Below, in pieces: positions 2,968-30,216 of a DNA stretch of 64,000 bases (positions are counted from its first letter, which is position 1; the number at the start of each line of letters is the position of its first letter). The DNA is taken from NCBI GenBank assembly GCA_950295325.1, contig OX485806.1, positions 21,826,001 to 21,890,000 of the forward strand. The letters are read 5' to 3'. This stretch comes from Polytrichum commune. Its lineage: Eukaryota > Streptophyta > Polytrichopsida > Polytrichales > Polytrichaceae. The notes beneath the pieces are model-generated. The model made no database searches. It was not told where the DNA came from and was given only the letters and a program-made list of their open reading frames with translations. A program made the position numbers and the translations under genes.

Positions 2968-4535
2968 ATGTACGGAGGGGGAGCGAGCCGAGCCAACGTT
3001 GAAGCCACAACGGCGGAGTTGTACGAGTTCGCCCGCCCTAGCTTTACCGGCGAGGTAGTTGAGGCAAACCAGGTCTCACTGTTCCCGCGAGGGGATGAAT
3101 ACCTAAAGGCGTTATGGCAAAATGAGGAGGCGTCGGGGACCCCATTATATATCGAACCGGAGGAAAATGATGAACGGGATCCCGTCATAAAAAAATTATG
3201 GCACATCCTCCGCAAAGGGGACGGCAACAGAGGGCCCGGATATGATCAATTCACCTACCGCACCCTAAAGCAGTGCGACAAAATGCCACTAATAACGTGG
3301 CTCATTCACACATTCAAGGTGCAAACTAAGCTGGGCATCATCTACCCAACTTACAAACTTGGGTTCGTATCATATATACCCAAGCCGGGGCCCCCAACAC
3401 ACAAATCCCGAACTTGAGACCGGTAACCCTGTTACCGGTCTTTTTCAAGATCTTAAGTAAATACATCACCTTTGTAACTTACAACATGATGCGAGAAACG
3501 ATAAGGGGAGCATACTATCACACGCCGTTCACCTTTCAAATGGGGGTGAACCCGGGGGTGGCGGGCTGCCAATATGCAAATCTCAAACTAATGGTAGTCT
3601 TAGAAGATAGTCGGCACAAGAAGAAGCCTCTATACTGCCTATTTACCGACTTCAAGGGGGCCTTCACGTCCCTTCCACTCGGCTTGATAGTATAGACCAT
3701 AGACCTATTGCCGATATGCCCAACACTACGCAGAATGTGGAAGGAAATGACTCTCGGCAACCAGGTGAGACTTATAGTCAACGGGGAAGCATCGGAATTG
3801 ATTACGATAACCCGGGGTGTGGCCCAAAGTAACACGATAAGTCCGTTCACCTTCGCGGTCGTGAAGGAAACGGTGACGAAATGGATTGCGCAGGAGTGCC
3901 ATGGATACTCTATTGCAGGAATCGAAATCAATGGCATAGATTATATGGACGATGAGGTACGCATCGCCGATACCGAAGAGGACATTCGCAAAATAGCCAC
4001 GATTCAGAGTAAATTCACCGAATAGGCCGGCATGCGGTTCGGGATATACAAATGCGCCTATTGGGGTAGGGAATTTATACGCGGAAAAGGGGACGACGTC
4101 GAGCTCGAGGATTTCACCCTATGCGGCGAGGTAATCCCGCAACTAGAAGGTTACGAAGCCTTCAAATACCTAGGAGAGCACAAAGCCCCCGCATCGGCAA
4201 AAACGAACCAAAAGCCCTTGCTACCTCGCGGTCCGAATGAAGAAAAGTGCGAGACGCACGAAGGCAAACGCACTCTCGCTAAGTTCAAAACGCAAGTAGC
4301 CCAGTTAGATACCCCCCAGATCCAAAAGCTACACTACGCGGGGAAACTTGATTTCTTATTACAGGCGGTGCGACCTTTGATAGAAATATTGTGTCTAATG
4401 AATCCGTCACCGAATTACATCTTGGATGAGGTCACGAGGATACAATACGGTGCAGCAAGAAGTATACTAGGGTGGCCGGCACGTAGAGGCGGCAAGAGGC
4501 AACTCGAAATGAGCACCGATTTAGAGCTCTTATGA
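2968..4535 (+). pseudogene. Reverse transcriptase of the R-type non-LTR element (lightly damaged)
   Basis: RT motifs appear in order: GPGYDQFTY, then IPKPG, LRPVTLLPVFFKILSK, FTDFKGAFTSLP, TRGVAQSNTISPF, the catalytic IDYMDDEV (about 3938-3960), FGIYKCAYWG and AFKYLG, then a thumb-like segment ending near 4530. There is one frameshift in the G/C run near 3390-3405 and two in-frame TAG codons (3693-3695 and 4023-4025); otherwise the frame is open. The catalytic box reads YMDD, where most non-LTR elements have FADD or YADD. No N-terminal zinc fingers are visible. The CAYW box and the RLE-type fragment at 41.5 kb favour an R2/NeSL/Utopia-like affiliation over L1. The few lesions suggest fairly recent loss of function. 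Confidence 0.75.
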
Positions 4536-5778
4536 GTGTTCTACTCTCTTCCTTCTCATTTGGCAAGAATGCTTCATTTATCTATTTTGTTCTTTTTTCT
4601 TGTTGATTCTTGACATTTAACGCGCAAGGAAGGGCGTGAGGACAAGGAGTGATGAAGTTGTGAAGTTCCGGAGAGAGAACACCACGGAGTTGCGGCGCAA
4701 CAAGATGAAGAATGTTTGTTTTGAAGGCACATCAAGGTGAATTGTGGTGATGAATTATTGAATTGTCTACGACATTCCTTGTTGTTTTTTCCGCTTGCAA
4801 GCTTGGATTTGTATCATTGAGCTTATGAAGAGCATTTTTTATTCCATTTCAAGTTCGCTTTCATTCAAAATTAAAAATAAAAATAAAAAAGAGGAGAAGG
4901 AGAGGCTCCGACTCTGAAAGTCGGAGCTTCTAGCTGGTTCCGGAGCTCTCAGCTTCTGGCTTTGGGGGCACGCGTCGGCCGTTCGCGGCACACGGCGGCG
5001 GCGGCGGCCGGGCCCGCAGCTCCCTTCCCTCCTCCATTTTTCCCCCTTCTCGGGCTCTTTCCCCGCTCCTTCCCCCACTGACCTTCTTCTCCCTACCTTT
5101 CCCTACTACCTACCTCCCCCTAACTTCCCCCCTTACTGCCTAACCCCTACCCCTACCCCAGCTACCTCCTACCCGGCTACCTACCCCCCCCCTTACTACC
5201 TACCTGCCCCTACCTTCTCCTACTGCCTACCCTACCCGGTTCCCTAACCGGCTTCATAAATTTGTGAAGATACATTTGAGGGGTCCTTATTTTTTTATTT
5301 TTTTTATTTGTGTTTTTAGTTATATTTTTAAATACAACAAAAATGAAATAAAATAAGATAAAAATAAGTGGCTTTATGAAGACAACTTTGGCATAATTTT
5401 TGCCAAACGAGGGAGTTTGGGGCTTTAGGACAACAAAACAACGTCCTAATCTCAAGAACAAGTCGACTAGTTTTTGGGATCAAAAACATTAGCTTGTTGG
5501 AAAGGGTGGAACATTGCGGGAGAGGTTCGCAGGAGCATCCGGCAACACGCGAAGGACGTGGGATCTCGGCGAATTTGCGGTTAGCTTCTTTTTCTTCCGC
5601 AACGACTTGATAGAGGTGCTTGGCATAAGTGGGGATTTTCCATTTTCTTATGTTTATAAGGAAAATAAGGACGTTGTGATTTATTTGGGGATAGGTGTAG
5701 GATATACTTTGGGTTAGGTTTATTAGTTTGTTGAGGAATTGTTGTTGGAATTATTTGGGGATAGGTTTATTAGATTGT

Positions 5779-7462
5779 TGTGAGCCCAAAATGGTGCCCA
5801 TATGTGGTGATTAACTCTTGAAAACCAATTTTAGTTTGACTTTGAGGTGTTATGATTATTCACAAAACATAAAAAGAGTGAAGTGTGGTTTGGATTTAAG
5901 TTTAGGCTTTAGAATGTGTTGTGTGATTATTTCAAGGTTGAATTCAATAAGAGTATGCCTTGATATTGTGAGTAGGGGGTAAGGTGAAGCAAGGTGAGCT
6001 CCGCGGGTTAAATGCCCACTTTTGGATCCACCTTGATAGTTTAGGAAGAAGGAAGCTTGGTGGAAGGGGATTAGTCCCTACTTTGGAGGAGAGGGTTAAA
6101 GGATTGTGATTGGAGGTGCTAATCCTCTCACCCTATCCTCACCTCTCTCTCCCTCTCTCCCTCTCTCCCTCTTTGCTACTTAAGGTGTTTTTTCTCTCAT
6201 TTGCCTCTCTCTCCATCAAGCGCTCTCAAGGGAGCAAGCTCTAAAGAGCTTGAGCCACGTGTGTGTGACATTAGTTTTTAGTGAAGTCAATTAGTTGAGC
6301 TCTCTCTCTCAAGGCCTCCCAAGTGAGGGAGCTCTAGAGCTTAAGTTTGCATGTAGTGATTAGGTGGTAGTTAGTTAAAGTGGTGTGTTAGATTAGCTCA
6401 TAACTTAGAAGCAAAAGAAAGAAAAGAAAAGAAGAATTTAGAAGACCTTGTTTAGTGGATGAGAGGGGTTGTATTAAGGGCAGCCAAGACTATAAGGTTA
6501 AGGAGTTGACTGCTGGAAGGTACTTCGGCTGGGGCCTAAAGCTAAGCAGCTGACTGCTGGAAGGTACTTCGGCTGGGGCCTAAAGCTAAGCAGCTGACTG
6601 CTGGAATGTAATTCGGCTGGGCTTAAAGCTAAGCAGCTGACTGCTGGAAGGTACTTCGGCTGGGCTTAAAGCTAAGCAGCTGACTGCTGGAATGTAATTT
6701 GGCTGGGGCCTAAGGTTAAGGAGCGACTGCTGGAAGGTACTTCGGCTGGGCCTAAGGTTAAGAAGCTGACTGCTGGAAGGGACTTTGGCTGGGCTTAAAG
6801 CTAAGCAGCTGACTGCTGGAATGTAATTCGGCTGGGGCCTAAGGTTAAAGAGCGGACTGCTGGAAGGTACTTCGGCTGGGCTTGAAGCTAAGCAGCTCAG
6901 CTGCTGGAATGTAATTCGGCTGGGCTTAAGTTAGTTCGTTAGATCTAATAAGTTAGGCTACTAGGGGGGTTGTAGTTAGGATAATCCCTTTTGGGATTGC
7001 TAGACCATACTAGATTCTTGCATGCCATCTTGGTTTTTAGGTAGAGTTGGATTTATTAGGAAAGTAGAAGTGTGTGGGACTTTTAAAATGTGTTGAGGGT
7101 TACCCATTGAGGCAAATGTTTTTAAACACTCGTACTTTTTGGTTGGAATATATTACATGCACAATTAATGGAGACTGTGGAGGATCCTAGCAAGGACAAG
7201 ATAAAGGAAGTAAAAATCAAGAAGTCTAGAGGGATCTCTTTAAGGGCATGTGTGGCCAAGGCCGCGGGTTGGACCCTTGAGAAATCGAATTCCACTACGA
7301 GCAACGATGCTCACAATAATAAAGCAAGTGAGTTAAAATGAAGTTAGTGCCTTGGACATGAGAGCCATATAGCAATTCACGTTAGGGTATTAGGAATTGA
7401 GTGTGATTTTCAAAGCCATCACCCGGACTAGGACGCCTAAGGGTGGTGGGTTTGGCCTCACA
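5779..7462 (+). mobile_element. Solo LTR, family A copy 1 (1684 bp)
   Basis: It begins TGTGAGCCCAAAATGG and ends GGTTTGGCCTCACA, giving TG...CA ends, and is flanked by a perfect 5-bp TSD, ATTGT (5774-5778 and 7463-7467). Two further copies (31262-33072, 33859-39958) and the LTR of the gag element (37128-38603) are the same family. No internal region or second LTR is attached, so it is a recombination-derived solo LTR. It contains a CT-rich tract (about 6140-6200) and a minisatellite (about 6498-6930). Confidence 0.88.
6498..6930 (+). repeat. Minisatellite within LTR family A copy 1 (~43-bp unit)
   Basis: About ten copies of a unit reading GCAGCTGACTGCTGGAA, then GGTACTTCGGCTGGG, then CCTAAAGCTAA, with point and length variants. 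The other LTRs of the family have arrays at the equivalent place with different units, so the expansion is specific to each copy. Confidence 0.85.
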
Positions 7463-8177
7463 ATTGTTGTTGGAATTATATGGGAATAGGTTTATTAGAT
7501 TGTTGTTGGAATTTATTTGGGGATAGGTTTATTAAATTGTTGTTGGAATTTATTTGGGGATAGGTTTAATAGATTGTTGAGGAATTGCTTAGAGGTAAAG
7601 CAAATTGGCATATAGAATCCACATTCGACTTAACAAGATAATTGTTAAGAGCGAATTGTGTTGAGAAACACAGATTCCAGGGACTTAAGGGAGGAGAGGA
7701 TTTTATATTGTAGACTAGATGAGCGATGTGCTTATCCAATTTCTTTTCTTAAGCAACAGGGGCTCTTCATTTTGACCACCAATTGCAGGCGGGTGCCGGT
7801 TGGTCGCGGTCGCTTTCAATTTTTGTTTAAGTGTTGTTTTGGGAAAGAGGATCCAGTGCGGTTATTGCATTGTTTCTTGTATTTTGTTGTGGTACCTTCC
7901 CCCGTGGCGTGCTGTTGTGTTGGAGTCTTCCAACATTAACCTATTTTGTGTTGTTCTAGTTTGTGATAGGGTATTGTGGGGGTGAGGTCGGAGTAATGAC
8001 CGACGAGACCCTTGTGTGTGTACCAAGTGGGCGGTGCTTATATTACTTTATGGTGAGGCTGGATTGATGACCAGCAGACCATAAGATTTGGTGGTGGTTG
8101 CAGATGCAGGTTGCCTTTACCTTAATACCACATTAGTTTAGGTTGTTGGCTCCAGTGACCAAATCCATTGCGGGTTT

Positions 8178-10200
8178 ATGGTTACAACTTGGAGCCAACA
8201 TTATCGTTCTCCGTCTTCGGCATCATCGCAAGGTCGATCTTCGGACCTTTTGGATAGTGAACCTGTGGTAGCACCCGACGAGGCTTTTCAGCCTACTTCG
8301 GCGTGGGGGACTGCCACTCGGTCTCACCTCCTTTGGATGAGATCCTTTGACGATATGGAGGAGGAGACGCGAGGCGACATCTGAGACCGATGTCTGGTCA
8401 AGCGGGGACCATTTCCCTGCAAGATTGGAAAATTCGGTTCAGAACATGGATGAGGGAGAAGCGTCAACGCAACACCAATTTCAACGATTGATATGCGTTC
8501 GAGTTTCTGCCACAGCATTTGGAGCACGAAGCTCTTCAGACCTATGAGCAATGGACAGATGCTCATTGGATGGAGCTGCGCCAGGTGGAGCGGTACTGGG
8601 GGACTCGGGTTGAGTTGGTGTCCGCATTGAAAGAAGGCGCAACTTCCAGTTTGATGGCCGTTCCAGAGGTTAAATCAGAGGTACCGGAAGGAGGTTATGT
8701 GGTGGATGTGGAGGGAGCTCCTCATGGTGAGCCGAGGGCTACGGGTCCTACTCCCGTCGCGGCCAGTACTTCGAGCCTCATTCTTCCGCTGTCACGTTAT
8801 GCCCAGGCTACCCAGGCGGCATTAGCTTCTTTAGGAGCTCCGCCAAATTTTGATCCTCTGCATGAATTCCAATTCCATTTGGAGGAGGAATATGAAGGCT
8901 TCCGCCGCGATAAAATGCAGCGTATCCAGGACTTTCGACGGGAGAAAGATGACACACCTCGTACCATATACACGAGGTTGGCGAGATTTGCTAGGGAATC
9001 TGGAGGTGTTTTCGCCAAGAGCCAGTTGGTAAAGGTGCTTTTGTCAAAGATTGACAAACGCCTCATTGACTTAGCTTTGCCCAGGATCATCATGGATCAT
9101 GGTGGCCGAGCGATACTTGCGAAAGCTTTCGCAATTGTTGAGCAGTGTGATCGTGCCTTGTGTCAGCACAACGCCACTGACATGGTGTCCATGCTAGTGG
9201 ATTCTAGCAAATCCCGGAAGGTTCCGGTTGCGGCTGCGGGATTGGCGGAGGCAGAGGTGGACAAGACCATGTATTGTTGGTCTTGTGGGCAGGCCGGCCA
9301 CGCTAAGAAGGACTGTCCTTCGAAGCAAAAGCCAGCCCAGACCGTAGGTAATCTGAAGTGGAAACCATTTGTTCCTGCTAAAGATTCGACGAAGGGCACG
9401 GGTAAACAATTACCCAAGCAGTTGAAGTGTTTGCATTGTGGGCAGAACAATCACGCGGTGGAGAACTGCTTTGCTCTCCATCCTGAGAAACGTCCTTCTT
9501 CCGATCAGGAGAAGACGTTGGAGGTGAAGATTGGAGCCATGGAGGAGAGGTTCAAAAGCTTGGCGTCATCCGGCCAAATTTTGGCCTCACCGTCTTCCTC
9601 TGGAGCTCAGGCTAGTTCTTCTACTCCGGATTATTATATGTTCGGAGCCTCGGGCGAGGTGGTGAGTTCCGCGGCGGTGACACATGCTCAAACTGTATCA
9701 CGAGGCACGCCTCCGACCACAGGGGAGTCTGTGGACAACTTACGCGCTCGAAACAATGGTCATGCGGATCTGATTGGCCAGGCACGTCTTCCATTGTCTT
9801 TTGGATTGGATGACGCTGTCCAATCTATCAGTGATTGTAATCCGACCTTGGAGGCTTCGAATCCGGAGACCGACGTGGTCCACACTTTGGCATCCAAAGT
9901 GTTGCACACCCCTTTGTTCACAGCGATGGAGTGGTCTTCATCGGAAGTTCAACCTGCTAAGGTTTTTCACCTAGCAGGTAGGATTTTGGAGGGAAAGGCA
10001 TCCCCATCTTCTTTGACTGTGGCTCAAGCCACCGCGGACCTTCCTACCACGGAGGATCCGGAGGAAGCGGCCAAACGGCGAGCGAGGCTTGCGACTGAGG
10101 CCATTGCGTCTTTTGACACACACACCTCAGATGGCCAAGAGCCCACCTCATCTTATGATTCACCAGCCTCCGCAAGTGCAGCTTATCTTTCAGATGTAGC
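8178..10200 (+). pseudogene. Gag of the gypsy-DNMT element (two CCHC knuckles, damaged N-terminus)
   Basis: Gag packages element RNA. The likely start is ATG at 8178. The frame shifts near 8360 and meets a TGA near 8489 (a Trp position by context), after which an unbroken frame runs on from about 8519. The capsid-like region is followed by two zinc knuckles of form C-x2-C-x4-H-x4-C at about 9275-9316 (CWSCGQAGHAKKDC) and 9428-9469 (CLHCGQNNHAVENC). Having two knuckles is unusual for plant gypsy elements. A Ser/Ala-rich linker follows and leads in the same frame into the protease. Confidence 0.8.
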
Positions 10201-10760
10201 TGTTCGACCTGCTCGCGAGCGTCAAGGCATTCGACTTGGCGTTGTACGGATGGTGAATGATTCCGGCATTTTGATGGTCGGTCGGACTGGGGGCAACCCT
10301 ATTCGCGTTGCTCCCCAGTGTATGATGATGGATTCTGGAGCACAACCTGTTATGATCGGCAAAAAGCTTGCGCAGGAATTGCGATTGACGGCCGACGACT
10401 TGGCTCCTTGCCCATTTACCATCGTCACCTCTATTGGCCACGTGGAGCGGGCCACCGGTTATACTCGGGAGCCATTACAGCTTAGTTTCCGAGTGAAGCC
10501 TGGAGATTCACCCGCACCTCTTCTTCTTAGGTGTGCGGTGACGGATGCAACCAACTATGACATTTTAGTTGGTCAACAAGCACTTTACCCCCTTGGTTTT
10601 GGGTTGGACAATTGGACTGAGGAGGCTTGGATCCGCCCGGGTTGGTCGGCTGGAGACGGCCGTAGGGAACTCATTCCTGTGGCATTCGCAGCGGCCGCCA
10701 CCATCGCACCATTATCCATGGTTTTTGGATGCAATGCTATGGTGGATACATTTCGTCATG
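10200..10760 (+). CDS. Retroviral-type aspartic protease domain of the gypsy-DNMT polyprotein
   Basis: The catalytic signature DSGA lies at 10331-10342 within MMMDSGAQPVMIG. About 80 residues on, a hydrophobic stretch ending DILVGQQALYPLGF resembles the end of a retropepsin fold. The domain is in the same open frame as gag and the start of the methyltransferase (one frame from about 8519 to 11470). It would process the polyprotein. The frame here is intact, although the element as a whole is not. Confidence 0.75.
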
Positions 10761-10984
10761 GATCCGCATTATTGGAGGAGTCATTGGCATTCATGGAGAG
10801 TGTTGAAGACCCACGAGAGATGACACCTAGACATACCTTGGTACGCCATCCTAAGGACCCTCTACCTCCGTGGCGTGATTCCTCCGGCTTGTTCCAACGG
10901 TGTGAAAACATTGTCATCTCTCTCAATTCTACCACACCAGTCATATCGGATAGTCTATCCACATTGGCACGTCCCATTTTGTGG

Positions 10985-12087
10985 TGCCCTCCAGACACTG
11001 GGATTACTTTGGTGGAGTTGTTTGGGGGCATTGGCACAGGATTAGTAGCCGTACTGGAGGTTGGCCTTACGGTCAAGCGGTATGTCTATGTGGACAACTC
11101 TCAAGTGTCCACCCGTGTGGCTCGTCATCATCTTCACCAGTTGATGGTGTTGTACCCACAGCTGTTACACCCGAATGCCATTCGTGGGTGTTTTTCACGT
11201 CTCCCTCGTGATGTCACACTCATCAGTGAGGCCGACTTACGACACTTAGGTCTGGTGGATATGGTGATTGCGGGATGGCCATGCCAGGGCCATTCACATG
11301 CTGGAGCAGGCGGAGGACTAGAGGATCCTAGGTCTACTCTATTTTGGAACCTCATCCGCCTCATGCAGTGGTGGTATTCTCACCAACCTTTCCCTCCAGG
11401 GTATATTTTCGATAATGTACCTTTGTTGGGAGACTCTTGGGACAAGGTGTTGGAGCAGGCGGAGGACTAGAGGATCCTAGGTCTACTCTATTTTGGAACC
11501 TCATCCGCCTCATGCAGTGGTGGTATTCTCACCAACCTTTCCCTCCAGGGTATATTTTCGATAATGTACCTTTGTTGGGAGACTCTTGGGACAAGGTGTT
11601 GGAAGGCGATTATTATGTTCGTCAATACCTTGGAGATCCCATTTTTGTGGATGCCGCGAGCATTGATTCTTATGCCCACCGGCCTCGGTGGATCTGGACC
11701 AACCTCGTACCATCATTTACTTTAGCTGCAGCATTTTTTGCGGTGCCTCCATCTTTTGATCAAAAGATAGATGACATCGTGGATCCAAACCGGACTTTTT
11801 TGCCGGTTGTTCGAGATGATTTACCCCCATTGGCATTGGTCAACAAAATGGGGGCACCACGGCGGGCCTTTCCCACATTTATGACGTTTCCACAGTCATT
11901 CGCTTTCCGCGATAGGGGGCCGGGTATGGTGTGGGATGTTTACACCAAAACCCACACCGAACCATTGGTTGACGAACGGGAGCGTGCCATGGGATTCCGC
12001 ACTGGCACCACCGCAGCTCCTGGCCTTTCTGAGGGCCAACGACGCTTCGTGTTGGGCCAAGCTATGGATCTTCATACCATGGTGTAG
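10985..12087 (+). pseudogene. Cytosine-C5 DNA methyltransferase domain in the gypsy pol, broken by a 149-bp duplication
   Basis: C5 methyltransferases methylate cytosine using S-adenosylmethionine. Motifs run in canonical order. Motif I, LVELFGGIGTG (Phe at 11021), binds cofactor. Motif IV is GWPCQGHS (catalytic Cys at 11282-11284). Motif VI reads DNV (11411-11419) where the family has ENV. Motif VIII is HRPRWIW (about 11677-11697). PRRAFPTFMTF and a motif X-like GQAMDL (about 12055-12072) follow. A 149-bp direct duplication (11302-11450 and 11451-11599) shifts the frame and ends the first frame at 11470; the second copy stays open to 12087. The domain lies between protease and RT. Its order is unlike plant DRM enzymes, whose motifs are rearranged. 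No target-recognition or chromatin-reader domain is evident. Confidence 0.85.
11302..11599 (+). repeat. 149-bp tandem duplication inside the methyltransferase
   Basis: Sequence starting TGGAGCAGGCGGAGGACTAG at 11302 is repeated exactly, as far as can be read, from 11451. The period of 149 is not a multiple of three, so the reading frame changes. Removing one copy reconnects the frames on either side. The near-identity of the copies marks it as recent. Confidence 0.93.
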
Positions 12088-12420
12088 ACTGTTGCTTTAT
12101 GTCTTTCATTGCAAAGACATCGTGATGACCAGTGGTTGCCTCTAGGGGCAAAGGACTCTAGTCAGGGGGCACAGCGGTCCACACCCATGGAGGAGGGAAT
12201 TCACGCCATGGTTGGAGAAGTCGAACGAATTTTTCAATTCAAGCAGCATGTGATGGAGGAGCTTCGAGCTCAATATTTTTACACAACTTCGGTTTCATCG
12301 CCTCCGGTGGTAGCTTCATCATCACATATTGGTGGTGATGAAGAAATATCAGACTCTAGTGCTAGCACCGAGACTAGGGGCATGGTTAATGCCCCCTCCT
12401 CTCATTAGCAATTAGAGTTT
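12088..12420 (+). other. Linker between methyltransferase and RT of the gypsy element
   Basis: A Ser/Glu-rich open stretch (best frame 12109-12408) separates the methyltransferase end from the RT. It probably belongs to the polyprotein but has no recognisable domain. Stops at 12085-12087 and 12406-12408 interrupt the joined frame. Confidence 0.5.
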
Positions 12421-13423
12421 GTGCCAGCATCAGGTGGTTCTCCTTTGGTGGAGAGGGAGACTACAGAGTTTGATGATTGGCCATTGGAATTAGGCCCTCA
12501 TCTCACTGGTGCTGAGGCACGGAAGGTACGAGCATTCATTCGCTCGTACCGTAGGTGTTTTGCTTTTAGCCTTCAGGATCTTGAAGGTTATAAAGGAAAA
12601 CCTATCCACATTCAGTTGGAGGACGACCATCCCATTTTTCGGAGACCTTACAGGCTCAGTGTTTCCGAGCGGATTGGTGTTCAGGCTCGTTGCCGAGAGC
12701 TCTTGGCAGCAAGGCTAATCAAACTTTCCAACGGGGAGTATGATTGTGCTACGGTTATGCCATCAAAGAAGGATATCTTTGGCAATTGGACGGAGAAACG
12801 GATATGTGGGGATTACCGTCCAGTTAATCGGAAGACCAAGTCGGATCGATATCCCATGCCAATCCCATAGGAGTTGTTCGATGCCATCGGATTTTCTCGG
12901 GTCTTTAGCACCTTGGACTTGAGATCCGGATATCACCAACTTCCATTACTTACGGGAGATTGGATGAAGACCGCATTTTGGGGAGTTGATCATGATGGGA
13001 AGGATCAACTATACCATTGGAAGTTTCTTCCATTTGGCCTCAAGAATGCACCTGCTGAGTTTCAGAGAGTGATGGACCAAGTCCTCTCTGGCTTGCCTTT
13101 TGCTCGGTGTTATATTGATGACGTGATCATCTTTAGCAAAACACCTCAGGAGCATGTAAGGCATCTTCAAGCCGTTTTTGAGCGATTACGGCGGTGGGGA
13201 TTGCGCTTGCACCATGGCAAGTGCAAGTTTTTCCATGACCGGCTGGCATATCTGGGACATGTGATTGTTCCAAGAGGTCTTGGTGTACAACAAGCTAAGG
13301 TGGACGCCTTGCAGAAGATCCCGGCACCGTTCGATGTGCCGAGACTTCGTGCTTTCTTGGGTTTGACGAATTATTATCGTCGATTTGTCAAGAACTTTAG
13401 CTTGATCGCCAAGCCTCTTACCA
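12421..13423 (+). pseudogene. Ty3/gypsy reverse transcriptase, 5' part (interrupted by LINE)
   Basis: RT copies element RNA into DNA. Visible motifs are HPIFRRPYRLS, KRICGDYRPVN, FSTLDLRSGYHQ, FLPFGLKNAPAEFQRVM, the catalytic YIDDVIIFS (about 13110-13138), HGKCKFF, YLGHVI and FLGLTNYYRRFV. One TAG (12868-12870) stands just before ELFDAIG. The frame is cut after AKPLT at 13423 by the LINE, and the missing continuation is found exactly at 40331. The motif set is typical Ty3/gypsy. Confidence 0.93.
13407..13423. repeat. 17-bp TSD of the LINE, left copy
   Basis: CGCCAAGCCTCTTACCA occurs here and at 40314-40330. Deleting the intervening DNA plus one copy restores the gypsy RT reading across the junction (SLIAKPLT then ILTSKDQ). 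This is direct proof of one insertion event. Confidence 0.97.
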
Positions 13424-14321
13424 GAAAGACCTCACCGAGGTTAAATCATGAGAAAACTTACAAGCCCCCGAGGGGGAAGAACCCGAGCCCAGTCGGGTTT
13501 GGGCGGGAAGGGCCAGAACAAAGGCCGAACGCCGACAGCCTAGGAGCCTAAACGGTGGCGGGAAGGGGGAACGGCCCCGGGGCGCGGGGGCCAGCCAGCA
13601 GGGAGAGCCGAAGAGGAAGCGCAGCTGGCGACCGCCACGGTCGCCACCTGTCAGAGGTCCAGCAAAGCAGGGGAGGAGGTCTCAGGGCCTCCGGGAAGGG
13701 GGAGCCAGGTTGCACGCGCGTAGGCGAGTAACGAGGTTAGTCGTAGACATCGAGGAAGGAGTAGTCCTAGATGTCAGGCGGCAATTCGAAGTTGAATCGC
13801 GGGATGCCAAGGTCTGCCGCCCATCGGTACACACCGACGAGTGAACCAGAGGTAGGAACTCCCGTTGTTCGAAAGAGTTGAAGGCAGTCCTCTTTCGTGA
13901 GGATGCGCGGAGTTGACGACGAGGCAAGCTCCGGGGGGAAGAGTCGCGCAAGGCGTCTCTCAGCGAGGGACTCGCTGAGGAGTTCGTCCACCTCGCCGGT
14001 GACTTGTGCATCCAGGTCGGCCTCGGAGATGCCGAGTCTTCTAAGCGTGAATCGGTTCGGATTCGGCCTTGGGCAATTGGCCGCAGTTGGGTAGTAGGAG
14101 CCAAAGGGGGGCCGCTTGAGAACTCAATGTGGGTAAAAAGTGACCCTATCGGCACTCTTGTGAGGGGACGTCCCTATGTCCCTCAACGCTTCATCATTAT
14201 GTAATCCTGGTGGTGGGTACTCCTGATGTGATTGAGATGGCGGCCCGGTACCCTCCCTCTCCTCACGAAACGTGGTGGGGTGGGTCTTGGTGGCGTTAGC
14301 CTCCGCACGTGGCTGCTGTTG
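13424..14321 (-). other. 3' region of the LINE, possible extra ORF
   Basis: Downstream of ORF2 the GC-rich 3' segment contains an open frame on the minus strand from about 14100 to 13767. It includes SEADLDAQVTGEVDELLSES and a C-terminal stretch ending ELPPDI. It reads like real protein but has no good start codon and no family I recognise. It may be part of the 3' UTR or a decayed small ORF. Confidence 0.35.
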
Positions 14322-16541
14322 CTACGGTGTGGGGGTCCCTCGACATTTGGAGAGTGATCCAAAAGGGCATTTCACCTTCTTCCTGCTGGTCGGGTTAGGG
14401 CGAGGTGGTGAGGGCGGGGCGTCATTCTCATTCCTGGTTCGGTCGATTTCTCTAAGGAGCTCTTCAAGTTCCTGTGGAGAGTCGTCTTTAGGTAGCTCCC
14501 GTGGCTCTCCCTGGTCCCCGTGGCGTGCTTGAGTCGTTGTTGTATGCTTCTGATGCGTCGGGTGGCTCTTACGGGGACCAAAGGTGCATTTGGTTTTGCT
14601 TCGACTTGACGGCCGTTGTGGATTGGCTTTTGGGTATCGGGTGCCCTGGATGTCTCCAGGGTATTGCCGGTTGGGGTGTATGTCCCCAAGGGGAGATCGT
14701 TGTGTGTGGTGCGTCGTCGTACCTGTCTGTGTCTCTTGTGCCGGTGTCCAGATGGTAAGTGTAAGAGATGGCCCTCCTGGGCCATGTTCTTCTTGTCTGT
14801 GGACGTCCAGTCGAGGTTGTGCTTCTGGATCAACTCCTGGCTCCCTGTTCTCCTCGGCTAAGTCGTGTATCTCTGTCTGAGTGGGTCTGTCCGGAGGAAT
14901 GTGTGAAGCATCCTGGGGTTGCCAGTTATTGGCAATGTCTTGGACGAAATCGTTTACTCTCTCTTCGAAGTCTGCTTGTGCTACAAACTTTGCCTCAGGG
15001 TCCGGGGATGGCGATGTTATGTGGATACGGATCGGTGGCGTAATCCATGCTCCTAATTCGCGAGGGAGGAACTCCTGGTGAGGTGTGGTGTTCCATTTGA
15101 TGCTTGTGTTACTTGCTCTCCCGAAAATGCTATGTGCTGTCCATATTTGTTCAAAACATGAAATCATTTCGTGTCTTTTTTCCTCGTTACGCTTGTGTCG
15201 GAATAGCTCCTTGTAAGCTTCCATGGCACAGTAGATCGTATTTCGCCATGCCCTCCATAAGACTGCTCCGAGGTGGACTTGGTCGTCGCTGAAATTGTGT
15301 GCCACCTTGCAACACCATATGGCCCAAAGCAATTGCGCACGCAGGATATCCCACGGCGTTTCAGCGTTGATGGTGACGGCAGCCGCAATATCCCATCTCA
15401 GTTCTTCCTCCACACTTGGACCAGGGGGGTCCATCATGAGGCCGCGGCTAATCTCAGGCCACGACGTGTATCCGTTGGTAAGTCCGGCCACTCTTCTGGT
15501 GTTGCGGAACAGTGTCCAAGCTCGACTAACTTCATAGCAGTCTCGAAATGCATGTTGGAGTGTTTCTCGCTCCTGCTCTGGGCAAATTTGGCAGGCACTC
15601 GGGAGACCGATGCGCTCCCTCCAAGCACCGACCGGAAGACCCTCAGTCAATATTAGCCACTGCATGGCGGACACCTTCCGTGGGAGGTGAGGATGCCATA
15701 TTCGATTGAAGAATTTGGCGCGTGCTTTGCTGTCGAGTCCAGCTGCTTCGAGCTCAGCGTCCACTGGCATCTGATGGTGTTCCTGTTTTAAGGCCACTCT
15801 GTATCCTCGCTTCGTAGTGTAATTCAGTATTGTTGTGTCAGGGAGTATACCAATTCTTCGCCAGAGCCACTCCTTCGGGTCCCATTCTAATTGACTAACC
15901 CAAGTGTTGCCCCATAACCATAGCAGCTGTTCGTCTTCGGGGGCCTCGTCTGGGTTGTAGTCTATGATTGTGTGTCTGGGTCCTATTGTTCTAACTACTC
16001 TCACCTCTCTTGTTCCAGCAGGGAGTCGTTGGGAGTGACTGATGAGGTGAAGTTGTTCAGTAGCATCTTTCCTGTATAAGGTGGCCTCTGTCGGGTCTAT
16101 GTGACTAATGTGGTATACTTGTTGGATGCTGCCGTCAGCTTCTCTCAAGGCTACCCACTGTCCTACTTGCTCTATTGGCATCGGTGTGGACGCCCAAGGG
16201 ATACTATGGAGGACTTTGGCATACAATGGAGGAGCTACCCTGGTGCGTCGCAGCCTGTCGAGCTCGGGGAAGGTACGCCATCCTCGTCCATCCTGTCGAG
16301 CAAAGTCCTGGAGTTGACGGTATCCTCTTTCTGCCCACCACAACATGTTTGATCGCGGTGTTGTTCCCCATTGGATTCCTTCCTCGCTGGTAAGTAGTCT
16401 ATTGCCGAAGATTGGTTGCCTAACAATTTCGGACCAGCTTGTGGGGGCTTGTTGTTCGAGGCCTGTCTGGAGTGTACGCCATGCTTTCATCACGCCCTGC
16501 CACATCGTTGATCCTTGCTTAACCAGGTTTGATGAGTTCAT
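14322..16541 (-). CDS. LINE ORF2, C-terminal part with zf-RVT-like domain
   Basis: This is the distal part of ORF2, split from the RT by the solo LTR at 16542-18482. The segment with KFFNRIWHPHLPRKVSAMQW, then ACQICPEQERET and LQHAFRDC, resembles the zinc-binding zf-RVT domain found after RT in plant L1 proteins. A long Gln/Pro/Thr-rich tail of some 250 residues follows, with two similar Cys-Phe-Gly boxes (KCTFGP near 14600 and KCPFGS near 14350). No RNase H motif is evident. The frame is open throughout; the apparent start Met lies at the insertion junction and is not a true start. Confidence 0.8.
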   Translation of the reverse strand: MNSSNLVKQGSTMWQGVMKAWRTLQTGLEQQAPTSWSEIVRQPIFGNRLLTSEEGIQWGTTPRSNMLWWAERGYRQLQDFARQDGRGWRTFPELDRLRRTRVAPPLYAKVLHSIPWASTPMPIEQVGQWVALREADGSIQQVYHISHIDPTEATLYRKDATEQLHLISHSQRLPAGTREVRVVRTIGPRHTIIDYNPDEAPEDEQLLWLWGNTWVSQLEWDPKEWLWRRIGILPDTTILNYTTKRGYRVALKQEHHQMPVDAELEAAGLDSKARAKFFNRIWHPHLPRKVSAMQWLILTEGLPVGAWRERIGLPSACQICPEQERETLQHAFRDCYEVSRAWTLFRNTRRVAGLTNGYTSWPEISRGLMMDPPGPSVEEELRWDIAAAVTINAETPWDILRAQLLWAIWCCKVAHNFSDDQVHLGAVLWRAWRNTIYCAMEAYKELFRHKRNEEKRHEMISCFEQIWTAHSIFGRASNTSIKWNTTPHQEFLPRELGAWITPPIRIHITSPSPDPEAKFVAQADFEERVNDFVQDIANNWQPQDASHIPPDRPTQTEIHDLAEENREPGVDPEAQPRLDVHRQEEHGPGGPSLTLTIWTPAQETQTGTTTHHTQRSPLGDIHPNRQYPGDIQGTRYPKANPQRPSSRSKTKCTFGPRKSHPTHQKHTTTTQARHGDQGEPRELPKDDSPQELEELLREIDRTRNENDAPPSPPRPNPTSRKKVKCPFGSLSKCRGTPTP

Positions 16542-18482
16542 TGTAGGAGTCCAAATTCGACGGAAGTACGGAAATACGGAAATACGGATTCAATTTCCGT
16601 ATTTTACCTTGCTTATCTGAAGATAATAGGGTCTCTTAGGACAAAATTAATTGTACCAGGAAATAGAGTATTCTAACCCCGCCTCGTGCGATAAAACCAC
16701 TCTAAATAAGTACTATGACCGGTCCGTCAAATAGGATGGGCGGACCATGTAATCATGGTCCAAACCATTGGTCCGGACCAAGTAACGGACGCGCCAAGAT
16801 TACCCAACGGCCCGGAAGTGGCGGTTATAACGGGCCTTATGACGGTTGGGGGAAAAGAAAGCCGTTGGTAACAATGTTAGTAAAACCGTTGGGGAGAACC
16901 GCCGGAAAACGGTTGGTAACCATTTTCCGTTAAACCAAACGGTAACAGGGGAAGGAAGAGGGAGGAAGGATATTTAAGGGTCCCTTCCTTCTCCCTCCCA
17001 CTTTTTTCTGAAAAGGGCAACATGTTGAGAGAACGAGTGGTGAGGTGTTAATTCTTTCGAGCCGCCAGCAGTGGGATTTCTGGGACTCTGCACTTTTCAG
17101 TCACCGGCAGTGGGCTTGCCGGGACTCTGTGGCAATTAGACGGAAGGGAAGGAATCCGGAAGAGAGGGAGTTTCCGTGGTTGAGCCGGAAACTGAGAGAA
17201 GAGGAAAATGCCGGAAGCACGGGAAGAGGATCAGAGGGAACCTATCCCGGTTCCGCTCAAAGCCCTCATCCCTGCAATTCCGAGGGAAGATAGGGAGCTA
17301 CAGGAGCTCGCGGAGGATCTCCGGGTTATGGGCTGCGCGGGGTTCCTTCTCAATTGTTGTATTGCGATTACTCCTATTCTGAATAAATGTCTTTACCTCT
17401 CACTCCTTGACTTCTCTTGATTGATGTTTGCGTGAATGATCTGGAGATTGCTAGTGGAAGAAAGAGAGAGAGCATGAGGGATAGGAGTTCCGGATAGGAC
17501 ATGAGAGAGGAGACCCGGATCAGATCCGGTTATCGCCTTGTAGATCCTCTCTGAGTGTAGTGGGAGGGAAACCTCATTAATCCGGTGGGTTGGGTAACGT
17601 CTAGGTGGGATAGCCGCTGGGAAGATTGGGTGAGATCCGGAAGGGATCCGGACTTACGCCAATTTTATCTTCTGAAGAGGTCCCACCGTCCTTAGACGGA
17701 CCTATCCGGATTGGTGGTACGGATCGCCCAGTTAGCTCAGATTGAGTAGAATCCAAGGTAGAGGTAGCCGGACAGATCCGTCGGACGGAGAAGGAGAGGT
17801 CCGGATCAGTAAGGATTCCGGATTGGAGGCCACCTCCGGAGTGTAGTAGGAAGAGATCCTCATGGTTCCGGATGTCTAGGTAACTTCCCGGTGAGATAGC
17901 CGTGGGGAGGATTAGGCAAAGGTCCGGAAGGGTTCCGGACTGATCTGATCTTCTGAAGGGGTCTCCTCACCGGTGGACGGGACAATCCGGAAAGTGGTAC
18001 GGGTCACCAACTCATCCCATCGAGTAAGATCTCCGGTCGGAATCCGGACTCTTCTGGTCACTGTGGTCTCAAGAAACAATCCGGATCTCTCTGCGTGACC
18101 TGCCAGGACGGACCTGATCAATCCGGATTGGTTGTAAGGGAGTTTCTGGATTCTAATCTTATCAAGGACGTCTTCACCGGAAGAAACCACCTATTCTAGA
18201 GGGTAGACGTAAAGGGGTGGGTAAGTATTATAAAGAGGACCTAGAAATAACATCCGGAGAGGCACACTCCGGAAAAAGGTTAGGAATGTCCCCAAAGACC
18301 AAATATCCGGAAATTAGGATTTCCGGAAATTTGGCTAAGGAAGAGGAAATAAGCAGGTACGGAGAGTTTTAGACCTCCTACACTTCACAGAATCCCTGGA
18401 CGATACTAGGGTCATCCGGACAACCCGGATTTGGCACTTAAAACCGCCAATCCGGATCTTTTGGTGTTCGCGTGTTCCCACA
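16542..18482 (+). mobile_element. Solo LTR, family B (1941 bp) in LINE ORF2
   Basis: It starts TGTAGGAGTCC and ends GTTCCCACA (TG...CA), with a perfect 5-bp TSD, TTCAT (16537-16541 and 18483-18487). Removing it rejoins LINE ORF2 between WIMN and SSNLVKQG. It has a TATA-like TATTTAAG (16971-16978) and a polyadenylation signal AATAAA (17382-17387), which sets plus-strand orientation. The long downstream part is full of TCCGGA/GGATCCGG words and holds two related ~130-bp blocks (about 17620-17760 and 17905-18035). Its starting sequence does not recur inside, so it is one LTR and not a short two-LTR element. Confidence 0.88.
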
Positions 18483-18487: not shown

Positions 18488-20160
18488 TATCCAATTTGCA
18501 CTTGAGGGCCATCGGCCTCTCCTTGATTGTCTCGTTTGTGCCACTCTGTGTCGTACCAAGACCTTCCATGGTTCGTACCTTGCTGTCAGTCCCCTAATTA
18601 GCAGTTTTACAAGTAATGCTGATGCTTGCCATTGGGGGTCGAGGTTTTTACTCCGCCCCAAACGATTGGAAGTACGGCTGTGGCCCACTTGACCCTGGCT
18701 CGGGTGCAGGATACTTCCTTCCCCGACCAGATGTAGTTGCGCATTGTTGTCCGGGCAAGCTTGAGGGCGTGGCCCGACAAGTCCATGCAGGAAGCCAAGT
18801 ACCAGATTGAGGAGAGTATCACTTGATTAGAGACCATGATGCGGCCTACAAGTGAGAGTTTATTGCTAGCCCATTTGTGTAGGTGCTTCCTGATTTGGCC
18901 TAACATTTTGCTGTCTTTCTCCTTCTGTGGGATCCGCAGGCCGAAGGGGTAGCCCAAGTATCGTGTGACTTCCCCTTGCTGGAGCCATTTGAGGCCCGCT
19001 TCCTCGCCCCATTGCCATGTTCTTTCGGTATGAGAGACCCACACTCCCACTGATTTATGGAGGTTGAGTTTTGCGCCTGATGCAGCTCCAAATCTGGTTA
19101 TGACGTTGATGGCCATGTCCATATTCTCCGGGGTACCGTCTAAGAGCAAAAGGGTGTCATCAGCAAACATCTGGTTGGTAATTGTTGAGTTGTCAAGGAG
19201 TTTGAGGCCTTGCACCTGGCAGTCGGGATGCTGTAACATTTGTCCTAAAACATCTACAGTCAGGAGGAATAAGTATGGAGTTAGGGGGCAGCCTTGCCTC
19301 ACCGACCGCTGGAGTTTAAAAGGTTTGGAGAGCTCTCCGTTGATGATGATTGTTGCAGATGCGCTCGTGTTTAGTGACATCACCTGGTCTATCCATTCGT
19401 TGCTGAAACCCATCTTTGTCATTGCTTGCCTTAAGAACTTCCAGCTTACTCTATCATAGGCCTTCTCGAAGTCCAAGAGCAACATGTTGAGGTCTTGCTT
19501 GTTGTCTAGTGCCCATTCAATGGCTTCGAATGCCAGGAAAACATTGTCTAGTATGCAGCGGTTAGGTACAAATCCCGTTTGGGATGGCAGTATCCAGTGG
19601 TGTAGAAGGGGTTTCATTATGTTAGCGTAGACTTTGGCCACCACTTTGTACAGAGTGTTGAGCAATGAAATAGGTCTATAGTTCTGAATACGGATTCTAT
19701 CTTCGGATTTCGGTAGGAGAGCTATCTTACTGACGTTTAATTCTGCCGTGATGCAGGCCTGGCTGATGGTTTCTGAGACGAATTCAAAGATATCCGACGA
19801 GATGTCTTCCCACAGCTCCTGGTAGAATTCCACGGGAATAGAGTCAGCCCCCGGTGCTTTCCCTGTGGGGAGCTGTTTCATCGCATTGTTCACTTCTTCT
19901 GGCGTAAGCGGTTGTAGTAGCTCAGCATTGTGGGCCTCCGTTACCGTTTGTTTCAGGTATGTGAAACAATCCTCTCGTGCCTCCTCGTTGGCTTCGACTG
20001 CCTCGTCCCATGTGTATAGATTTTCGTAGAATTTAAGGATGTGCTCCTCCAATTCAGTCTGTTGTGTGATGAGTCTCTCCCCCTCTCGCAATTGGGTGAT
20101 GGGTGCAGGTTTCTTGTGCCCCGAGTGGTGTTCGAAGAATTCCTTCGTGCATCGGTTGCC
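18488..20160 (-). pseudogene. LINE ORF2 reverse transcriptase
   Basis: RT motifs are GKAPGADSIPVEFYQ, NYRPISLLNTLYKVVAK, LDFEKAYDRVSW, RSVRQGCPLTPYLF, the catalytic MFADDTLLLLDG (about 19139-19174) and RYLGYPFG. These are diagnostic of L1-type LINEs. The main frame is 18607-20091. Continuation past 18650 needs a one-base shift in a run of A residues, after which LDPQWQASALLVKLL reads on to the solo LTR at 18487. Upstream, the frame passes through RVGNRCTKEFFEHH, split by the TIR element at 20171. Apart from that frameshift and the insertions the domain looks intact. Confidence 0.92.
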
Positions 20161-20170
20161 GACTCGCGCC
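20161..20170. repeat. 10-bp TSD of the TIR element, left copy
   Basis: GACTCGCGCC occurs here and at 29029-29038, immediately outside the two terminal inverted repeats. Joining across it restores the LINE coding sequence (WARVGNRCTKEF). Because of chance matches the shared sequence can be read as up to 12 bp. Confidence 0.93.
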
Positions 20171-20225
20171 GGACGAAGCTATTTTGCGAGCGTTGAGCGG
20201 TGAGCGGTGAGCGGTGAGCGGTAAC
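20171..20225 (+). repeat. Left TIR with GAGCGGT heptamer repeats
   Basis: AGCTATTTTGCGAGCG is followed by four GAGCGGT-type heptamers. The right end (28990-29028) has the inverted form with about two to three heptamers, so repeat number differs between ends. Confidence 0.85.
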
Positions 20226-22803: not shown

Positions 22804-25800
22804 ACCCTCTCGGAGCCGAGAGGGTCCCCGAAACAAAGATTGAACCCAACCCCCTACCCCTTCTCGGGGCCGAGAGCGTCATTACATGACACAACTTAGC
22901 CCCTAATATCTTCGGACCTTCATAACTTCCACTTGCAAAAAAACCCAACCCACCCACTAATCTACCACCTATTCCCCCTCAAAATCAGACTTAGCAAAAA
23001 TCAACCCATATACATGAGCATCCTCACCCCCTCTCCTATAGTGTTTCGGTGCCGAAACACCCTCAAATGAGAAAAAATAAACCCAACCCACCCACTAATC
23101 TACCACCTGTTCCCCCTCAAAATGAGACTTAGCAAAAATCAACCCATATACATGAGCATCCTCACCCCCTCTCCTATGATGTATCGGTGCCGATACACCC
23201 TCAAATGAGAAAAAAAAAACCCCAACCCACCCACTAATCTACCACCAATCCCCCCTCAAAATGAGACTTAGATGTCAATGCACACCTCACTTGCCCCATT
23301 CAAGCAAGTACTGAGAAAGTTATGCCCCTTCAAACCTTAGCAGTCTTGGGAGCCACTCCCCGGCCACTGCTAAGGTTTGAAGAGGCATAACTTTCTGAGT
23401 ACTTGCTTGAATGGAACAACTAAGGTGTGCATTGCCATCTACGTTGAATGTAAATAACAATAGAGCGGTTGTTTGTTAGATTTGGACAACGCAAGTGGAA
23501 GTTATGAAGGTCCAAAGATATTAGGGGGTTTGTTTTTTTTCATTTGAGGGGGTGAGGATGCTCATGTAGATGGGTTGATTTTTGCTAAGTCTCATTTTGA
23601 GGGGGAATTGGTGGTAGATTAGTGGGTGGGTTGGGGTTTTTCTTTTTTCTTTTTTCTGATTTGAGGGTGTATTGGCAAATCAACACATATACATGAGCAT
23701 CCTCACCCCCTCTCAAATGGTGTATCGGTGCCGATACCCCCTCAAATGAAAAAAAAAAAAAACCCAAACCCACCCACTAATGTACCATCAATTCCCCTTC
23801 AAAATGATACTTAGCACAAATCAACCCATATACATGAGCATCCTCACCCCCTCTCAAATGGTGTATTGGTGCCGATACCCCCTCAAATGAAAAAAAAAAA
23901 ACCCAAACCCACCCACTAATGTACCATCAAATCCCTTTCAAAATGAGACTTAGCAAAAATCAACCCATCTACATGAGCATCCTCACCCCCTCTCCTATGG
24001 TGTCTTGGTACCGAGACACCCTCAAATGAGAAAAAAAAACCCAAACCCACTCACTAATGTACCATCAATTCCCCCTCAAAATGAGACTTAGCAAAAATCA
24101 ACCCATATACATGAGCATCCTCACCCCCTCTCAAATGGTGTCTCGGTACCGAGACACCCTCAAATGAGAAAAAAAAAACCCCAACCCACCCACTAATGTA
24201 CCATCAATTCCCTTTCAAAATGAGACTTAGCAAAAATCAACCCATCTACATGAGCATCCTCACCCCCTCTCCTATGGTGTCTAGGTACCGAGACACCCTC
24301 AAATGAGGAAAAAAAAAACCCCTAATATCTTCAGACCTTCATAACTTCCACTTAAAATGTCCAAATCTAACAAAACACCACTCTATTGTTATCTAAATTC
24401 AACGGAGATGGCAATGCACACCATAATTGTCACATTCAAGCAAGTACTCAGAAACTTATGCCTCTTCAAACCTTAGCAGTGGCCCGGGAGTGGCTCCCAA
24501 GACTTCTAAGGTTTGAAGGGGCATAAATTTTTTAATACTTGCTTGAATGGGGCAAGTGAGGTGTGCATTGCCATCTACGTTGAATTTAAATAACAATAGA
24601 GTGGTATTTTGTTAGATTTGGACATTTTAAGTGGAAGTTATGAAGGTCTGAAGATATTAGGGGTTTTTTTTTTTCTCATTTGAGGGTGTCTCGGTACCGA
24701 GACACCATTTGAGAGGGGGTGAGGATGCTCATGTATATGGGTTGGTTTTTGCTAAGTCTCATTTTGAGGGGGAATTGATGGTACATTAGTGGGTGGGTTG
24801 GGGTTTTTTTTTTCTCATTTGAGGGTGTCTCGGTACCGAGACACCATAGGAGAGGGGGTGAGGATGCTCATGTAGATGGGTTGATTTTTGCTAAGTCTCA
24901 TTTTGAAAGGGAATTGATGGTACATTAGTGGGTGGGTTTGGGTTTTTTTTTTCTCATTTGAGGGTGTCTCGGTACCGAGACACCATAGGAGAGGGGGTGA
25001 GGATGCTCATGTAGATGGGTTGATTTTTGCTAAGTCTCGTTTTGAAAGGGAATTGATGGTACATTAGTGGGTGGGTTGGGGTTTTTTTTTTCTCATTTGA
25101 GGGTGTCTCGGTACCGAGACACCATTTGAGAGGGGGTGAGGATGCTCATGTATATGGGATGGTTTTTGCTAAGTCTCATTTTGAGGGGGAATTGATGGTA
25201 CATTAGTGGGTGGGTTGGGGTTTTTTTTTCTCATTTGAGGGTGTCTCGGTACCGAGACACCATTTGAGAGGGGGTGAGGATGCTCATGTATATGGGTTGA
25301 TTTTTGCTAAGTCTCATTTTGAGGGGGAATTGGTGGTAGATTAGTGGGTGGGTTGGGGTTTTTTTTTTCTCATTTGAGGGTGTCTCGGTACCGAGACACC
25401 ATAGGAGAGGGGGTGAGGATGCTCATGTATAATGGCTTGATTTTTGCTAAGTCTCATTTGGAAGAGGAATTGGTGGTGCATTAGTGGGTGGGTTGGGGTT
25501 TTTTTTTTCTCATTTGAGGGTGTCTCGATACCGAGACACCATAGGAGAGGGGGTGAGGATGCTCATGTATATGAGTTGATTTTTGCTAAGTATCATTTTA
25601 AAGGGGAATTGGTGGTACATTAGTGGGTGGGTTGGGGTTTGTTTTTTCTCATTTGAGGGTGTCTCGGTACCGAGAGACCATATGGGATGGGGTGAGGATG
25701 CTCATGTATATGGGTTGAATGTTTTGTAAGTCTGATTTTGAGGGGGAACTGGTGGTAGATTAGTGGGTGGGGTTGGGGTTTTTTTTTTCATTTGAGTGTG

Positions 25801-25810
25801 TTTCTAGTAC
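22804..25810. repeat. Inverted satellite array (139-bp unit) with palindromic cores
   Basis: At least fifteen units carry a central palindrome, most often GTGTCTCGGTACCGAGACAC. On the right side its starts are 24686, 24824, 24963, 25102, 25240, 25379, 25519 and 25658, a period of 138-140 bp. On the left side the units run in reverse orientation (for example 23999, 24137, 24276). A large inverted repeat with its pivot near 24485 joins them. Between cores are a poly-A or poly-T run and a conserved ~90-bp segment ending near CTCATTTGAGG. Left-most units (22804, 22862, 23041, 23180) have different but still palindromic cores. No coding potential. Confidence 0.92.
24316..24660. repeat. Central pivot of the inverted satellite array
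   Basis: The arms CCTAATATCTTCAGACCTTC...AACCTTAGCAGT and their reverse complement ACT(T)CTAAGGTT...GAAGGTCTGAAGATATTAGG meet around 24485. Related, less symmetrical modules occur at about 23270-23520 and 21940-22090, suggesting repeated inverted duplication. Confidence 0.85.
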
Positions 25811-28989: not shown

Positions 28990-29028
28990 TACCGCTCACC
29001 GCTCACCGCTCGCAAAATAGCTTTTCCC
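28990..29028 (-). repeat. Right TIR of the 8.86-kb element
   Basis: CCGCTCACCGCTCACCGCTC followed by GCAAAATAGCTTTTCCC is the inverse of the left terminus and is followed by the TSD GACTCGCGCC at 29029-29038. Confidence 0.9.
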
Positions 29029-30201: not shown

Positions 30202-30216
30202 ACTATCTGATGTTGG

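Follow-up and report, generated by a model that had tools for sequence, protein, structure and literature searches.

The genome of Polytrichum commune carries a Ty3/gypsy-type retrotransposon that, to judge from the sequences of its copies, almost certainly codes for a DNMT3-class C5 DNA methyltransferase, is present in high copy number and was recently mobile. The element is laid out as A - ORF1 (gag, protease, methyltransferase) - UAG - ORF2 (reverse transcriptase, RNase H, integrase, PHD finger) - B-A-B, A and B being terminal repeats. A parasite usually silenced by host DNA methylation here brings the mark-making enzyme itself. The reason why a target of methylation would encode a methylating enzyme thereby becomes open to test.

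A dead copy in the window

The window, the whole 64-kb stretch of P. commune DNA analysed here, holds one copy of the element on its plus strand. Its parts are given below with reference to L064, a copy from the same genome that was read whole; P numbers denote protein relatives.

4518-4750, plus strand: remnant of the A1 end and leader, 82% to L064:355-579
7648-8177, plus strand: remaining leader, opening the 7648-11461 match to L064:1416-5244 (87%)
8178-10300, plus strand: gag region of ORF1, from ORFs; its frame breaks somewhere from about 8384 to 8492
about 9272-9322, plus strand: CCHC knuckle in the gag region (zf-CCHC 0.0024, below the curated cut-off)
10313-10700, plus strand: aspartyl protease (MMDSGAQPVMIG; Asp_protease_2 0.0062 and gag-asp_proteas 0.0085, both below cut-off)
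10973-12110, plus strand: C5 methyltransferase of the DNMT3 class, disrupted in the window copy (Pfam, protein matches, alignment)
about 11015, plus strand: methyltransferase motif I
11279-11287, plus strand: methyltransferase PCQ (motif IV)
11299-11447, plus strand: first copy of a 149-bp tandem duplication in the methyltransferase
11448-11596, plus strand: second copy of the duplication, 99% identical, shifting the frame
about 11410 and 11559, plus strand: motif VI as DNV, one per duplication half
11677, plus strand: methyltransferase HRPR
12055, plus strand: methyltransferase GQAMDL
12111-12405, plus strand: variable C-terminal tail of ORF1 (ORF 12088-12408, after the TAG at 12085; tail common to P0001-P0013)
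12406-12414, plus strand: ORF1 stop TAG CAATTA, in a readthrough context of the tobacco mosaic virus type
12409-13423, plus strand: ORF2 start and reverse transcriptase, 92% to L064 (RVT_1 at 3e-28 in ORF 12871-13551, Pfam; TAG at 12868)
13407-13423, plus strand: left 17-bp duplication flanking the nested insertion (same as 40314-40330)
13424-40313, no single strand: nested insertion of 26.9 kb, mainly a minus-strand LINE-like element (read by eye) with further repeats
40314-41528, plus strand: right 17-bp duplication, followed by RNase H and the beginning of the integrase, 95% to L064:7044-8257

The ORF at 8492-11470 matches PF00145 (DNA_methylase, Pfam) at 2e-9, with 37.8 bits against a curated cut-off of 22, and a profile search thus bears out the C5 methyltransferase domain proposed in the preliminary description. 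The C-terminal half of the domain alone (from 11449; ORF 11416-12087) gave no Pfam match; as a query it retrieved 102 proteins at E <= 0.01, the best being 85% identical over its full length. For the protease region, the Pfam match in relatives reaches 3.6e-5, above the cut-off for P0013.

The window copy is dead and cannot make the methyltransferase, because the duplication shifts its frame, motif VI reads DNV, the TAG at 12085 replaces what is a Trp in relatives, the gag start (about 8178) and the ORF at 8492-11470 lie in different frames, and another TAG interrupts ORF2 at 12868. The insertion at 13423 separates the reverse transcriptase from RNase H, and the integrase end, PHD finger and 3' repeats are missing from this copy. 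The stretch at 40162-41772 was considered as an unrelated second element and rejected as such: it is the rest of the same copy beyond the nested insertion.

Several other repeats were seen in the window. LINE-like pieces, read by eye on the minus strand and full of later insertions, lie at 14322-16589, 18607-20178, 28996-31317 and 33319-33939, and a satellite array of 138-140-bp units occupies 22937-25862 within the nested insertion. An array of 43-44-bp tandem repeats (6493-6924) lies in or beside the leader of the window copy. The frames at 59045-62501 on the minus strand resemble a transposase of the MULE/FAR1 type whose end is SWIM-like.

A high-copy, recently mobile family

Across the genome (64 contigs totalling 407.8 Mb, of which the seven contigs C1-C7 account for 406.1 Mb), a search with PF00145 gave at least 123 scored places, all above cut-off, among 353 candidates. 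Nearly all belong to the element family; at least one (C2:4703606, in L076) is a host exon, which we read as DRM-type. With the ORF1 protein P0005 as query, at least 35 places were scored among 987 candidates, each spanning 1309-1310 of 1334 residues, and 15 of these 35 are without an internal stop. The copies form two families, A (window-like) and B (L009-L038), with 64% identity between their methyltransferase domains.

Repeat A (334 bp) was scored at 40 places; at least 13 pairs among them lie on one strand at a spacing of 8-14 kb. Ten of these pairs, all of family A, were fetched for the analysis of ends; a methyltransferase place lies between the repeats in every one, with an open frame of at least 1360 aa in seven. 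K2P distances between A1 and A2 run from 0 to 0.025 in these 10 copies, two pairs being identical. Related copies appear to be intact and to have moved recently. The three copies read whole (L063-L065) have an ORF1 of 1366, 1366 and 1360 aa and an ORF2 of 1048 aa, L065 being frame-shifted right before the ORF1 stop. In L064, Pfam recognizes DNA_methylase in ORF1 at 5.7e-12, with the CCHC knuckle and protease below threshold, and in ORF2 RVT_1, RT_RNaseH, H2C2, rve and a C-terminal PHD finger; the domain order is that of Ty3/gypsy elements (PR-RT-RNase H-INT), with a DDE integrase. No relative of the element was found in a collection of viral contigs.

A DNMT3-class enzyme under selection

Methyltransferase motifs I - IV - VI - VIII - X are arranged linearly, and the catalytic residues are present in family copies. 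Among 29 family-B copies (L029, one codon longer, is omitted here and from the C-to-T counts and within-family selection below) PCQG is found in 28, ENV in 28 (27 as FENVP) and HRPR in all 29, and the family-A copy L064 has ENV. The canonical motif order first read from the window copy is therefore right as to its linearity, but that copy itself has DNV for motif VI and a broken frame.

A profile of 14 domains was compared with solved structures. The first 29 of 57 rows were DNMT3A/B/C (1e-16 to 8e-14); DRM scored 5e-8, then M.HaeIII 1.6e-7. By this comparison the methyltransferase is closest to DNMT3 among solved structures. An AlphaFold2 model from 39 sequences has a mean pLDDT of 78.8 and a pTM of 0.84, an earlier and weaker model having reached a pLDDT of 60.4.

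The host has DRM exons of its own, a point in favour of the domain being a captured host DRM gene, or a chimera of host gene and element in the window copy only. Both exon-length host matches that we read are DRM-type, with no non-element DNMT3 gene among them. The profile of the host exon, however, is the opposite of that of the element domain (DRM2 9e-34, DNMT3 8e-10), and the order of motifs is linear, without the rearrangement typical of DRM (VI-X before I-V). A chimera of one copy is contradicted by the occurrence of the domain at more than 100 places in the genome, in copies flanked by repeat A, and in other lineages. We reject both origins, whose chance is close to nil; the preliminary description had likewise argued against DRM capture.

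Between families A and B, we obtained dN/dS values of 0.122 for gag, 0.110 for the protease, 0.115 (0.073-0.192) for the methyltransferase, 0.27 for the linker, 0.47 for the tail, 0.033 for the reverse transcriptase, 0.023 for RNase H, 0.022 for the integrase and 0.094 for the PHD finger, ratios that are rough given saturated dS, so that only their order is trustworthy. Within the 29 family-B copies the values, which include mutations after insertion, are 0.347 for gag, 0.337 for the protease, 0.525 for the methyltransferase, 0.70 for the tail and 1.13 for the linker. By these estimates the methyltransferase domain is under selection, weaker than that on reverse transcriptase, RNase H and integrase, and between families it is constrained like gag and protease.

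Split terminal repeats and a putative self-priming site

Copies with paired terminal repeats do exist, but the repeats are split (A ... B-A-B). Plain LTRs were rejected: the stretch after the 3' 334-bp repeat repeats the stretch before it. The 5' end consists of A1 alone, and ORF2 is followed by a purine tract (GAGGGGGGGCA), B1 (106 bp), A2 (334 bp) and B2, with B1 and B2 identical in the one copy compared. All 10 family-A copies have the ends TGTCACGG...CACGACA, of the TG...CA type, and a 4-bp target duplication. For family-B copy L009, no paired repeat was found in the sequence stretches examined. The B1/A2 junction reads GACA-GC-TGTC in nine of the 10 copies and GACA-GT-TGTC in the other, and the two junction bases (GC or GT) are absent from the integrated ends.

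Directly 3' of A1 the leader starts with ACTTGGCAAG..., and over its first 12-15 bases it is complementary, in reverse orientation, to A1 124-139 in 10 of 10 copies. The rule described for self-priming elements is a complementarity of at least 10 bp located 0-5 bp from the LTR end (PMC6317226). The leader/A1 complementarity is as in such elements and suggests that this one primes itself. If the purine tract and the priming site are used as usual, the repeat unit of the cDNA would be B-A, and the integrated A...B-A-B would be the outcome of opening a two-unit circle at B/A.

A conserved leaky-type stop between methyltransferase and reverse transcriptase

The methyltransferase had been placed in the same pol as protease and reverse transcriptase. 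The three do belong to one Ty3/gypsy-type element, but the methyltransferase ends ORF1, and a conserved stop precedes the reverse transcriptase, which lies downstream in the same frame. In all 42 copies that hold the stop (L001-L038, L063-L065 and the window copy) it is followed by CARYYA, the codon being TAG in 41 and TAA in one. Among the 1703 TAGs of the window, both strands included, CARYYA follows only one, namely the ORF1 stop. The residues after the stop diverge between families (QLESVPASG versus QSQVVLAPS) while its context is kept. In tobacco mosaic virus UAG-CARYYA is a readthrough context, and we infer that the ORF1 UAG is read through as well. Since the conserved stop ends ORF1 after the methyltransferase, the enzyme would be part of the Gag-level product, before the reverse transcriptase. 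The stop is not universal, because the Closterium relatives P0015, P0143 and P0157 hold methyltransferase domain and reverse transcriptase in one open frame.

A PHD finger at the end of ORF2

Residues 990-1034 of L064 ORF2 match the PHD finger PF00628 at 1.4e-10 (Pfam), and the family-B copy L040, read by eye, ends in the same finger. Pfam gave no chromodomain match at the integrase C terminus of L064 up to E 0.1, and no phage-integrase (tyrosine recombinase) match in L064 of the kind that would mark a DIRS element. The nearest PDB entries are CHD4, PHF12, KMT2D, DPF3, ATXR5, KDM5 and UHRF1. As a rule, PHD fingers that read H3K4me3 have a cage Trp, and at this position the element has Gly. Given the specificities known for CHD4, ATXR5, KDM5 and UHRF1, fingers that read unmodified H3K4 are among its nearest solved relatives, and the finger may accordingly be a reader of H3K4me0.

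Relatives in liverworts and in Closterium

Metagenome proteins of 1228-1376 aa make up 10 of 15 relatives in one set of matches; five of these ten (P0001, P0002, P0005, P0007, P0011), and also P0013, comprise gag, protease and methyltransferase domain and end after the ORF1 tail. Liverwort relatives are found in Calypogeia fissa (P0071, P0122), Marchantia paleacea (P0076) and M. polymorpha (P0128, P0149), and at least 19 relatives from Closterium are among the matches listed (120 of 244). By Pfam, Closterium P0141 and P0157 have the order CCHC-protease-domain(-RT), and the Marchantia proteins the domain only, their knuckle and protease motifs being recognized by eye. Named relatives are thus liverworts and a zygnematophyte alga. 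The host had been described as vascular-plant-like; a plant with DRM exons it is, but "vascular" is unsupported.

None of motifs I, IV, VI, VIII and X has been lost in the branch of land-plant type, Marchantia P0128 and Calypogeia included. In all five Closterium rows compared (P0014, P0015, P0141, P0143, P0157), ECQ stands for PCQ at motif IV, with the catalytic Cys kept. A tree of 46 domains, confined to the element family and rooted at its midpoint (P0162, with a very long branch and no recognizable motifs, was dropped), separates seven Closterium rows (100/100), a branch of 13 that includes the liverworts (97/90) and a branch of 26 with the Polytrichum families (98/95). This topology fits an old streptophyte lineage; horizontal spread could also have produced it.

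Comparison with known elements

Methyltransferase-carrying retrotransposons are on record from one charophyte alga and one dinoflagellate, where they were presented as isolated cases that arose independently (PMC5890265); according to a later paper, methylase-bearing transposons do not occur in land-plant genomes (PMC6338049). The high-copy plant family and its relatives in three liverworts and Closterium indicate that such a combination goes back further, or reaches more lineages, than those accounts state. By description, the closest counterpart is KnitGypsy-Dnmt3 of Klebsormidium nitens, which shares a gypsy Pol, an unrearranged DNMT3-related domain in the polyprotein and the repeat order A-coding-B-A-B (stated there to be the same as in DIRS), and which is likewise intronless, multicopy and under purifying selection (PMC5890265). 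Its host is an alga and not a plant as here, and the PHD finger, leaky stop, self-priming site and 4-bp duplications go unmentioned for it in the main text of that paper, which has no word beginning with PHD and nothing on liverworts (PMC5890265). Among the matches listed, including the 120 of 244, no Klebsormidium protein is named. The SymbioDIRS-Dnmt3 element of Symbiodinium also has a DNMT3-class domain and A-coding-B-A-B repeats, but it integrates by a tyrosine recombinase, whereas our element has a DDE integrase and 4-bp duplications (PMC5890265).

Plant chromoviruses (Tcn1, Chlamyvir and Galadriel among others) are Ty3/gypsy elements whose integrase ends in a module that reads chromatin, and Tcn1 is predicted to self-prime (PMC6317226). 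The present element differs from them, as there described, in having a PHD finger and no chromodomain match, a methyltransferase and split repeats (PMC6317226). True plant DNMT3 shares class and linear motif order with the element domain; it is, as described, a multi-domain host gene, whereas here the domain lies between protease and reverse transcriptase (PMC6453930). Among the matches listed from the open-licence literature searched, we found no later report of such land-plant elements. Apparently new are thus the land-plant hosts, the PHD reader, the leaky stop, self-priming and the target duplications. The host lineages can be grown, and Marchantia is genetically workable.

A possible role for the methyltransferase

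We propose the following cycle. Ribosomes would mostly stop after the methyltransferase, so that the enzyme is made at Gag level and the reverse transcriptase as a rarer readthrough product. The protease would release or keep the methyltransferase, which would be packed into the particle. To prime reverse transcription, the RNA would fold its own 5' part back onto the site immediately following A1. The packed enzyme would methylate the double-stranded cDNA before integration, and the new copy would enter the nucleus with host-like marks; the PHD finger would guide integration into chromatin in which DNA methylation is the usual state. To this explanation as a whole (identity, Gag-level enzyme, cDNA methylation, PHD targeting) we give a probability of about 0.5. 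It is supported by the kept catalytic motifs, by purifying selection between families, by a stop context kept despite divergent residues after it, by the self-priming complementarity, by the PHD finger, and by the de novo CG methylation shown for the DNMT3 domain of the retrotransposon SymbioDIRS-Dnmt3 (PMC5890265). It is weakened by the yeast result for KnitGypsy (below), the weaker constraint on the methyltransferase, ECQ in Closterium and C-to-T changes in all contexts. Methylation of the element's own cDNA by a packed enzyme is a tentative step, for which we would put the odds a little under even.

Those changes amount to 12.1 per 1000 at CG, 15.7 at CHG and 10.4 at CHH, against 2.6 for A/T transitions, and are 4-6 times as frequent as the latter in every context. 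Such an excess, the mark of ordinary host methylation, implies that the enzyme does not keep settled copies unmethylated. It would also fit an enzyme that leaves the particle and modifies, inside the nucleus, the host genome or the insertions of the element itself, with slower spread or a host chromatin change useful to the element as the outcome. Kept catalytic motifs and purifying selection agree with any catalytic role, this one included, and the PHD finger provides a link to chromatin. Two points speak against such self-restraint or manipulation of the host: the fusion of the enzyme to gag and protease, upstream of the reverse transcriptase, makes a role within the particle more likely, and the host already has DRM exons of its own. 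We consider this reading unlikely.

Less probable still is that the domain is kept for a job other than DNA methylation, be it binding RNA or cDNA, shaping the particle, or methylating RNA. The Gag-level position, ECQ in the Closterium relatives and a constraint weaker than on reverse transcriptase and integrase would all suit it. So would the behaviour of the KnitGypsy domain in yeast, where no methylation was seen, a result its authors call inconclusive (PMC5890265). Against it stands the conservation of all five motifs, both across the land-plant-type branch and in 28-29 of the 29 copies of family B.

A broader and frankly speculative extension of the proposed cycle, which we think improbable as it stands, is that split-repeat (A-coding-B-A-B) retroelements, which would pass through a two-unit circular double-stranded DNA, repeatedly carry a DNA methyltransferase whether they use a tyrosine recombinase or a DDE integrase. 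Here, the Gag-borne methyltransferase would methylate the circle, the integrase would then open it at the near-palindromic B/A junction, the GC being lost on insertion, and the PHD finger would direct its insertion into chromatin whose H3K4 is unmodified; the system would have been inherited in streptophytes at least since the split of Closterium and land plants. If this were true, a DNA methyltransferase would mark a replication mode, and the parasite would be equipped to write host chromatin marks as well as to read them.

Transposon pieces among annotated methyltransferases

Methyltransferase genes annotated in bryophytes, and even in bacterial metagenome-assembled genomes, can be pieces of transposons. 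The M. polymorpha genes MARPO_0008s0049 and Mp_8g15430 (P0128, P0149) are gag-protease-methyltransferase pieces of the element family and may have been miscounted as host methyltransferases. P0118, a protein assigned to a Candidatus Obscuribacterales MAG, shares 70% identity with the element domain and groups inside the family tree; it is probably contamination of a bacterial bin by a plant transposon. In the metagenome protein P0114, the first half of the methyltransferase is joined directly to the integrase, apparently in an internally deleted copy.
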